In this document: in pieces, positions 22,794 through 54,128 of the stretch | Layout: each line of letters opens with the position of its first letter | Position numbering within the stretch: the stretch's first letter is position 1 | Notes under the pieces: generated by a model | What the model saw: the letters and a program-made list of their open reading frames with translations, nothing else | What the model was told of the DNA's origin: nothing | Database searches by the model: none | Made by a program: the position numbers and the translations under genes | From: an uncultured Nitrososphaerales archaeon | GTDB taxonomy: Archaea > Thermoproteota > Nitrososphaeria > Nitrososphaerales > Nitrosocaldaceae | Direction of reading: 5' to 3' | Length of the DNA: 64,000 nucleotides | Assembly (NCBI GenBank): GCA_938030895.1 | Contig: CALHIV010000015.1 | Coordinates: 1-64,000, forward strand

Positions 22794-22976
22794 ATGATGG
22801 CTAGTATACAAGACAAACATTTATTATATGCTGGTAGGGAGTATAATCACTTGAACCTATTCAGGCGCAAGACAGATAATGGTAGTAGCAATGTATGCGA
22901 GTATTGTAGCGTTGAGTTTCAGGATAGAGAGCATCTGGAGAGGCATAAGAAGGTAGCACATAGGAAAGGTCGTTGA
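22794..22976 (+). CDS. Small C2H2 zinc-finger protein
   Basis: 60 residues. CEYCSVEFQDREHLERHKKVAH is a classical C-x2-C-x12-H-x4-H finger (about residues 35-56), preceded by a charged N-terminus and ending in basic HRKGR. Single C2H2 fingers occur in archaea and may bind nucleic acid or protein. Start ATG-ATG at 22794/22797. Target unknown. Confidence 0.8.
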   Translation: MMASIQDKHLLYAGREYNHLNLFRRKTDNGSSNVCEYCSVEFQDREHLERHKKVAHRKGR

Positions 22977-23040: not shown

Positions 23041-23186
23041 GGGGTCGTAGCCTAGTAAGGTAGGGCGACAGTTATAGCAGGAACCGCAAAGGGCTCCAGA
23101 GGTATACGGGTCATCTGACGAAAGGATGATGTGGCTCTGGAGCTGCAGTGACCCGTAGGTCAGGGGTTCAAGTCCCCTCGACCCCA
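23041..23186 (+). tRNA. Intron-containing tRNA, probably Met or Ile with CAT anticodon
   Basis: Acceptor strands GGGGTCG (23041-23047) and CGACCCC (23179-23185) pair. The D-arm GCCT/GGGC spans 23050-23066, and the T-arm AGGGG-TTCAAGT-CCCCT spans 23162-23178. Discriminator A is followed by an encoded CCA (23187-23189). The gene is about 73 bases too long. CCGTA (23153-23157) needs TACGG, found only at 23105-23109, so one insert of about 37 bases lies between the D-arm and anticodon stem, and a second of about 36 in the anticodon loop. The loop would then read GTCATAC (anticodon CAT). Exact splice sites, and so the isotype, are inferred. Confidence 0.75.
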
Positions 23187-23382
23187 CCAGTCATGTGGTC
23201 CATAGTCTACCAACGTAAATACCAACATCTTAAATGATAAACCGTTAATTCGCTATATTATATCATATTATATTATATCATATCTCTAGCGTATAATTTG
23301 CATACTCTTGATTATGCAACAGAGTAGCAGAATAGACAAGATAAATAGAGAATGTTATCTTAATATCACCAATATCCTCGAT

Positions 23383-23414: not shown

Positions 23415-24665
23415 ATGCAAAAAAGGCTCCTTTCACTCTTTGCTTGTACCCTAATCCTAAGTCTGGCAGTTGCTCCAAATCTAACAATACCTGTATCTGG
23501 ACAGGGAAGATCTGGTGAAAAGGTGCCAGATCGTTACATAGTAGTGCTTAAGGATGATACAAGTGATGCTAGAGGTGTAGCAAATGATATTGCCCAAAGG
23601 CATAGAATTGCAGTAGAGCATGTATATGAGCACGCATTGAAGGGATTTAGTGCTATAATACCAGCAGCAAAGTTGGATAAGGTTAAGGCTGATTCTAGGG
23701 TCAGATTCGTAGAGCAGGATATGACCGTTGAAGCCTTTCAATCCTCACAGGTAATACCAACTGGGATAAATAGGATAGATGCTGATCTGAGCACTACCGC
23801 AAAGATCGATGGAAATGATGAGAGAGTTGGCGTGGATATAGCCATAATCGATACTGGGATTGATCTAAAGCATCCTGACTTGAATGTTAATACAGCTCTA
23901 CAAAAGACATGTGTTCCAGGAACTAAAAATGCTAATGATGATAATGGGCATGGTACTCATGTTGCAGGTATTGCAGCAGCCATCGATAATGGTAGAGGAG
24001 TGGTTGGCGTTGCTCCAGGCGCTAGTTTGGTTCCAGTCAAAGTACTCGCTAGAAATGGTTCTGGACTTATATCTTGGGTTATATGTGGTGTGGACCATGT
24101 TACCAGGCATGCTAATACTATAGAGGTTGCCAATATGAGTTTGGGTTGCGCATGCCACTCAAATGCATTACATCTAGCAGTGAAGAGGTCTGTTGAAGCA
24201 GGTGTAACCTATGTTGTTGCTGCTGGGAACAGTGCTAGCGATGTTTCTAACTTTGACCCTGCTAGCTATCCTGAGGTGATCACAGTATCAGCCATAGTAG
24301 ATACTGATGGTAAGTGTGGAGGTCAAGGCCCTAGCACAAATTATGGAGATGATGATACCTTTGCAACATTCAGCAACTTTGGTGCAGGTGTAGATTTAGC
24401 GGCACCTGGAGTTGACATCCTTTCTACATACAAGGGGCAGAGTTATGCTATTATGAGTGGTACTAGCATGGCAAGCCCACATGTTGCTGGTGCTGCAGCA
24501 CTCTACAAGGCCAACAATCCATCTTCTACACCAGATCAAGTGCGTAATACACTAGTCACCTCTGGCATACCTCAAACTCAAGGTTGCGTCAGCGATGGTA
24601 ATGGGGGCTTCACTGGAGACCCTGATACATACAATGAACCTCTAGTCTATGCAAGGACTCTGTAA
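23415..24665 (+). CDS. Secreted subtilisin-like serine protease
   Basis: 416 residues, peptidase S8 family. Order: signal peptide (about 1-30), an I9-type propeptide (about 37-105; DRYIVVLKDD ... FSAIIPAAKLDKV ... VRFVEQD), then the catalytic domain. Catalytic Asp146 is in AIIDTGID, His179 in NGHGTHVAG, the oxyanion Asn in VVAAGNSA, and Ser in SGTSMASPHVAG (about 355). The propeptide should inhibit and fold the enzyme until autocleavage outside the cell. Six or more cysteines in the mature part (for example CVPG, CGVD, CACH, CGGQ, GCVSD) suggest disulfides. No C-terminal anchor, so probably released. Confidence 0.95.
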   Translation: MQKRLLSLFACTLILSLAVAPNLTIPVSGQGRSGEKVPDRYIVVLKDDTSDARGVANDIAQRHRIAVEHVYEHALKGFSAIIPAAKLDKVKADSRVRFVEQDMTVEAFQSSQVIPTGINRIDADLSTTAKIDGNDERVGVDIAIIDTGIDLKHPDLNVNTALQKTCVPGTKNANDDNGHGTHVAGIAAAIDNGRGVVGVAPGASLVPVKVLARNGSGLISWVICGVDHVTRHANTIEVANMSLGCACHSNALHLAVKRSVEAGVTYVVAAGNSASDVSNFDPASYPEVITVSAIVDTDGKCGGQGPSTNYGDDDTFATFSNFGAGVDLAAPGVDILSTYKGQSYAIMSGTSMASPHVAGAAALYKANNPSSTPDQVRNTLVTSGIPQTQGCVSDGNGGFTGDPDTYNEPLVYARTL

Positions 24666-28238: not shown

Positions 28239-28331
28239 GCCCTGGTAGTATAGAGGCGTCAAGCCGTAAAGCCTGGTCTAGTATGCGGGTCTGTCACACC
28301 CGCGGCCCGGGTTCAAATCCCGGCCAGGGCG
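28239..28331 (+). tRNA. tRNA-Asp (GTC) with D-loop intron
   Basis: Acceptor GCCCTGG/CCAGGGC, anticodon arm CGGGT-CTGTCAC-ACCCG (anticodon GTC), T-arm CCGGG-TTCAAAT-CCCGG and discriminator G, all as expected for aspartate. The D-stem GTAT (28248-28251) pairs with GTAT (28281-28284), but the D-loop holds about 18 extra bases (approximately 28254-28271, AGGCGTCAAGCCGTAAAG). Removing them leaves a normal loop, AGCCTGGTCTA. The cheA stop codon lies 6 bases beyond, on the opposite strand. Confidence 0.88.
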
Positions 28332-28337
28332 CTACTA

Positions 28338-54020: not shown

Positions 54021-54128
54021 GGGCCGGTAGTTCAGCGGTAGAATGTCCGCCTCGCACGCGGATGGTCCCATACCTGTCCTTTGGTAGGGATCAGCGAGAG
54101 GTCGCGGGTTCGAATCCCGCCCGGTCCA
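54021..54128 (+). tRNA. tRNA-Ala (CGC) with intron in the variable region
   Basis: Acceptor GGGCCGG/CCGGTCC, D-arm GTTC-AGCGGTA-GAAT, anticodon arm TCCGC-CTCGCAC-GCGGA (anticodon CGC) and T-arm GCGGG-TTCGAAT-CCCGC are intact. Between the anticodon stem (ends 54062) and T-stem (begins 54099) lie 41 bases where 5 are expected, implying a 36-base intron. GGTC occurs at both ends (54064-54067 and 54095-54098), so the splice point could lie anywhere from position 44 to 48. The insert folds: GGTCCC with GGGATC, and TACC with GGTA. A TATA-like TTAAAC lies about 27 bases upstream. Confidence 0.9.

Follow-up and report, generated by a model that had tools for sequence, protein, structure and literature searches.

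The element at positions 23041-23189 (+) of the window, the 64,000-nt stretch of an archaeal contig analyzed here, is very likely the one tRNA-Trp(CCA) gene of a thermophilic, ammonia-oxidizing archaeon, a species of Candidatus Nitrosocaldus, with the terminal CCA encoded and two introns, the second of which would serve as a guide for C39 (Table 1). This second intron, judged by its boxes and complementarity, probably marks its own tRNA by 2'-O-methylation of C39 before it is excised. The covariation described below indicates that a self-methylating tRNA-Trp intron occurs beyond the Euryarchaeota, in a smaller, single-unit form found through the Thermoproteota; the assignment also fills the Trp slot of the genome and gives the right identity to a tRNA gene overlooked by ARAGORN and Rfam.

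Table 1. Features of the twice-interrupted tRNA-Trp gene (coordinates in the window; assigned roles of intron 2 elements are predictions).
Feature	Coordinates	Strand	Description
Exon 1	23041..23069	+	tRNA-Trp positions 1-28, GGGGTCGTAGCCTAGTAAGGTAGGGCGAC
Intron 1	23070..23090	+	21 nt, non-canonical site 28/29, AGTTATAGCAGGAACCGCAAA; BHB-like motif
Exon 2	23091..23099	+	positions 29-37, GGGCTCCAG; anticodon CCA at 23096-23098
Intron 2	23100..23150	+	51 nt, canonical site 37/38; BHB-like motif
Guide	23105..23113	+	TACGGGTCA; complement of 23149-23157, spanning the 3' splice junction
Box D'	23115..23118	+	CTGA
Box C'	23125..23131	+	GATGATG
Anticodon-loop arm	23135..23142	+	CTCTGGAG, conserved in orthologues; complement of CTCCAGAG (23094-23101) in the anticodon loop and at the 5' end of the intron
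Guide target	23149..23157	+	TGACCCGTA; last two intron bases and positions 38-44
Exon 3	23151..23189	+	position 38 to encoded CCA; discriminator A73

The acceptor stem (GGGGTCG/CGACCCC), the D arm and the T arm of the gene are exact, CCA follows at 23187-23189, and the excess over the 77-nt mature form amounts to 72 nt. In silico removal of 21 nt after position 28 and 51 nt after position 37 yields a perfect 77-nt cloverleaf with the anticodon CCA. Archaeal tRNA-Trp is expected to carry the identity elements A73 and G1-C72, and both are present. On its sequence the gene is a tRNA-Trp(CCA) and not a tRNA-Met or tRNA-Ile; this identity and the exon borders are established by sequence together with covariation. 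The exon register is not a free choice, because relatives without intron 1 show the same stem, directly readable as GCAGG or ACAGG-CTCCAGA...CCTGT, and because the stem covaries in spliced orthologues: in the 18 examined it is 100% paired, with both-side changes at three of the five pairs, a signal abolished by sliding or shuffling controls. Removal of intron 1 restores all five anticodon-stem pairs in the parsed carriers, whereas reading through fails at position 28, and in sequence L106 the pair 29-41, whose two bases lie on either side of intron 1, is C-G instead of G-C, which provides a further control on the register.

The earlier note was right in recognizing a tRNA gene whose acceptor, D and T arms are exact and which has two inserts; the gene is real, and the inserts are introns, one canonical and one non-canonical. 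Its first intron, placed near positions 25-27, has to be moved to 28/29, inside the anticodon stem, and its insert sizes of about 37 and 36 nt give way to 21 and 51 nt, the proposed boundaries having been wrong. TACGG had been taken as the sole partner of the 3' anticodon-stem strand CCGTA, but a second partner, AC...GGG, exists and is split by intron 1. TACGG is complementary to that strand because it belongs to an intronic guide copy of the stem strand, inside intron 2.

Automated tRNA finders were of little help in choosing among identities. Neither ARAGORN nor the Rfam tRNA model at its gathering cut-off detected the gene; the one Rfam hit there was a sub-threshold tmRNA match reflecting the shared acceptor stem and T arm, and ARAGORN run on the unspliced gene reported a false Ala. 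When given the three in silico splicings (Trp, Met/Ile with CAT, Cys with GCA), ARAGORN accepted all of them and therefore could not discriminate between them. The tRNA-Met or tRNA-Ile favored in the earlier note, with the stem TACGG/CCGTA, the loop GTCATAC, the anticodon CAT and introns near position 26 and in the loop, is a form that also scores as tRNA-Met in ARAGORN and with which A73 is compatible. We nevertheless regard it as very improbable: orthologues without intron 1 set the exon register as Trp, the GTCATAC loop consists of guide bases that are variable among relatives, CTCCARA being almost invariant, and searches of the genome with a mature-Trp model and with patterns found no other Trp gene, the best model match being Pro(CGG). 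It also counts against this reading that two further tRNAs are encoded elsewhere in the genome: one of elongator type with the anticodon CAT, inserts of its own and the loop CTCATAA (C5:49844-49922), and an initiator tRNA-Met (C19:16194-16304); a tertiary Ile(CAT) tRNA was not located there. The Cys(GCA) reading, already held to be weaker in the earlier note, was rejected on the orthologue register and the presence of a normal tRNA-Cys(GCA) with U73 (C14:32360-32431). That the locus is a pseudogene or decayed tRNA might be suspected from its having been overlooked by ARAGORN and Rfam, but we give this next to no weight, as all arms are exact, the gene is conserved in every congener searched, and it is the only Trp gene found in a genome (1.37 Mb) estimated to be 98.7% complete.

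Several other tRNA genes of the genome carry inserts. In the window, ARAGORN reads 28239-28332 (+) as tRNA-Pro(TGG), while by eye it is a tRNA-Asp(GTC) with an insert of about 17 nt in the D arm, and 54021-54128 (+) is a tRNA-Ala(CGC) in which about 33 nt are inserted near the variable loop; Ala(TGC) (C23:22663-22771) shares this insert, and Ile(GAT) (C23:22867-22961) has one that resembles it. Both tRNA-Glu genes (C6:26157 and C7:35630; L058 and L059) have T-loop inserts. The tRNA-Trp gene is flanked upstream by a gene for a 60-aa C2H2-like zinc-finger protein (22794-22976) and downstream by one that appears by eye to encode a subtilisin-like secreted protease (23415-24665, +).

The tRNA-Trp gene occurs in six of six Nitrosocaldus genomes examined with 93-100% identity (93-98% in the five congeners), and an exact pattern taken from it matches solely Nitrosocaldus records (N. 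schleperae, N. tengchongensis and SKYG19) and archaeon HR04. A model of the tRNA-Trp core has matches in most families of the class and in 95 of 200 genomes sampled across the phylum (E < 1e-9). This presence in all six Nitrosocaldus genomes and in orthologues through class and phylum shows that the gene is not a chance assembly. Genomes of family f7 (probably Nitrososphaeraceae) gave only weak matches to the intron-bearing model. Some genera of family f9 (probably Nitrosopumilaceae) have a different, intronless tRNA-Trp with the acceptor GGGTTCG (L167-L170), perhaps by gene replacement. A third insert was seen in the orthologues L008, L007 and L015; two of these inserts, of about 47 and 13 nt, separate positions 9 and 10, and the other is in the T loop.

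BHB-like motifs are present at both intron sites, each in a relaxed form with three of four central pairs in this genus. At intron 1 the motif is formed by GGCG (positions 23-26) and CGCA with the bulges AC^A and AA^G; measured against the BHB definition of a 4-bp helix and two 3-nt bulges and scored on the central helix, it is relaxed. All four central pairs are formed in 36 of 41 parsed orthologues and three in the remaining five, which include this genus; relatives have GGCG/CGCT or GACG/CGTT. A splice with the bulge AAA (GGCG/CCGC) was rejected: with it the stem would keep a surplus A, and GGCG/CGCA with AAG fits the relatives. The genome encodes two tRNA splicing endonuclease family proteins, as expected for the heterotetrameric enzyme that has been linked with non-canonical introns (PMC4090602). 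At intron 2 the exon bases CTCC (32-35) face GCAG, followed by the 3-nt bulge TG^A ending in A38; three to four of the four pairs are formed in 67 of 68 orthologues, with a perfect GGAG in families f13 and f3.

Within intron 2, CTGA and GATGATG, assigned as boxes D' and C', are invariant or nearly so in the orthologue alignment. Methylation by box C/D RNAs follows the N+5 rule, whereby the methylated base is paired to the guide base five positions before the D box. For the CUGA here this is G at 23110, which pairs with C39 (23152), so that an N+5 guide for position 39, a feature of the dual-guide type of tRNA-Trp intron, is present. Full pairing (7/7) in the register of position 39 is found in 31 of 68 distinct orthologous sequences and in none at 13 other registers, and reshuffling the guides among the 68 sequences gave full pairing in a mean of 8 and a maximum of 16. 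In 32 sequences outside family f9, chosen regardless of pairing, the guide covariation score was 0.375, against 0.166 when shuffled and at most 0.113 when slid. Two of five measures were unexceptional: pairs with a change on both sides were matched by 430 of 500 shuffles and further pair types by 150 of 500. The box motifs and the guide pairing with its register are thereby established by sequence and covariation. The final two bases of intron 2 (i-1 and i-2) show covariation with the guide across the 31 guide-positive sequences, in four and three Watson-Crick pair types, respectively. The mature tRNA lacks these two bases, and yet they covary; pairing is therefore selected on the unspliced precursor. 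That two guide pairs lie inside the intron and covary fully suggests that methylation would precede splicing; fibrillarin is encoded in the genome.

The terminal boxes of the euryarchaeal dual-guide type were not found: no exact CUGA occurs in the 3' part of any of the 68 introns, and matches to box C in their 5' part are no better than in shuffled sequences. A one-mismatch box (CTGC or CTGT) right after the anticodon-loop arm would point at A36, not C34, and a terminal C/D pair across the junction of a circularized intron, sought by eye, was discarded, the candidate GTGAGGT not being conserved. The arm CTCTGGAG, conserved with variants, may be a second guide arm, for C34, or a structural helix, and is treated here as structural or a relic. 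As terminal C/D boxes were not found and the near-match points at A36, intron 2 looks like a half-guide variant with one D'/C' unit directed at position 39 only, a form that appears widespread in Thermoproteota.

It could also be argued that the gene is the tRNA-Trp described above but that the box-like motif and the complementarity are purely structural, as an L7Ae-bound hairpin or an aid to splicing, and guide no methylation. The missing terminal boxes fit such a role, and so does family f9, in which CTGA/GATGATG and the anticodon-loop helix are kept while complementarity to position 39 is lost; boxes can therefore persist without this target. In f9 loci (L009-L013, L021, L072 and others) the sequence 5' of CTGA is now often paired with that next to GATGATG. 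Against a purely structural role, the pairing outside f9 mostly keeps to the N+5 register for position 39 and shows covariation at several of its positions, and position 39 is also the one whose methylation the Haloferax intron guides (PMC7714728). We therefore consider it unlikely and prefer intron 2 as a guide for C39.

It is proposed that in the precursor with both introns TACGGGTCA pairs at the junction of intron 2 and exon 3, that the CUGA/GAUGAUG unit binds L7Ae, Nop5 and fibrillarin, and that C39 would be 2'-O-methylated by these C/D proteins before splicing. Intron 1, as long as it is present, splits the 5' strand of the anticodon stem (AC...GGG), and the 3' strand would therefore be free for the guide. 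The splicing endonuclease would remove both introns, the 21-nt intron at 28/29 leaving next, after which the anticodon stem and the second splice motif can form, and the 51-nt intron at 37/38 last, probably as a circle; circular tRNA-Trp introns have been seen in two Sulfolobales (PMC12558985). In the predicted fold of the naked precursor an extended intron hairpin replaces the cloverleaf anticodon arm, which is compatible with two exclusive states but is no proof of them. Several guide-bearing families are without intron 1, so that an ordering role of this intron would not be general. A half-guide with one D'/C' unit and C39 as target may be ancestral in Thermoproteota, read across the junction so that methylation comes first, with the Nitrosocaldus 28/29 intron as a timer holding the stem open; we offer this tentatively and think it rather less probable than not. 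As the last intron bases take part in the pairing, the order "methylate, then splice" becomes a prediction open to test, and an anticodon-stem intron is a possible means of enforcing it.

Intron 1 resembles the non-canonical introns of other archaea in being short, lying outside 37/38, having a BHB-like motif and co-occurring with two endonuclease proteins (PMC8450103, PMC4090602), and introns of this kind, with relaxed BHB motifs, are known to abound in its thaumarchaeotal lineage (PMC8450103, PMC4090602). The site 28/29 is absent from the short list in PMC4090602, which names the neighboring 29/30 and 30/31 and ends in "etc." Both tRNA genes with two introns and introns in the anticodon stem, including one in tRNA-Trp, have been described before (PMC8450103, PMC4307357). 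The tRNA-Trp(CCA) of Aeropyrum pernix likewise has an experimentally confirmed anticodon-stem intron, but it is reported 31 bases from the 5' end and not at 28/29, and the passage on it in PMC4307357 describes no second intron.

A box C/D guide intron in euryarchaeal tRNA-Trp was reportedly described by Clouet d'Orval et al. in 2001 and Singh et al. in 2004. Box C/D RNAs nested within tRNA-Trp introns are known (PMC4090602), and guidance of C34 and U39 by the Haloferax intron is established (PMC7714728, PMC4090602). The system is represented in Haloferax volcanii and by sR50 of Pyrococcus (PMC7714728, PMC4090602, PMC7994747), and a recent review places it in Haloferax and other Euryarchaeota (PMC11408192). 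In our searches of the open literature, the 2000-2003 primary papers aside, no description of a single-unit, junction-reading form through the Thermoproteota was found; priority is uncertain, as our comparison with that primary work rests on reviews. As far as these accounts go, intron 2 shares with the euryarchaeal guide intron the tRNA, the canonical site, the CUGA and GAUGAUG boxes, the position-39 guide across the 3' exon-intron junction and the conserved stretch pairing with the anticodon loop. It differs from it, as there portrayed, in its length (51 nt versus 103 nt in Haloferax), in its target (C39 versus U39), in its lack of recognizable terminal C/D boxes, here and in the orthologues, which the euryarchaeal C34 guide needs, and in being accompanied in Nitrosocaldus by a second intron at 28/29.
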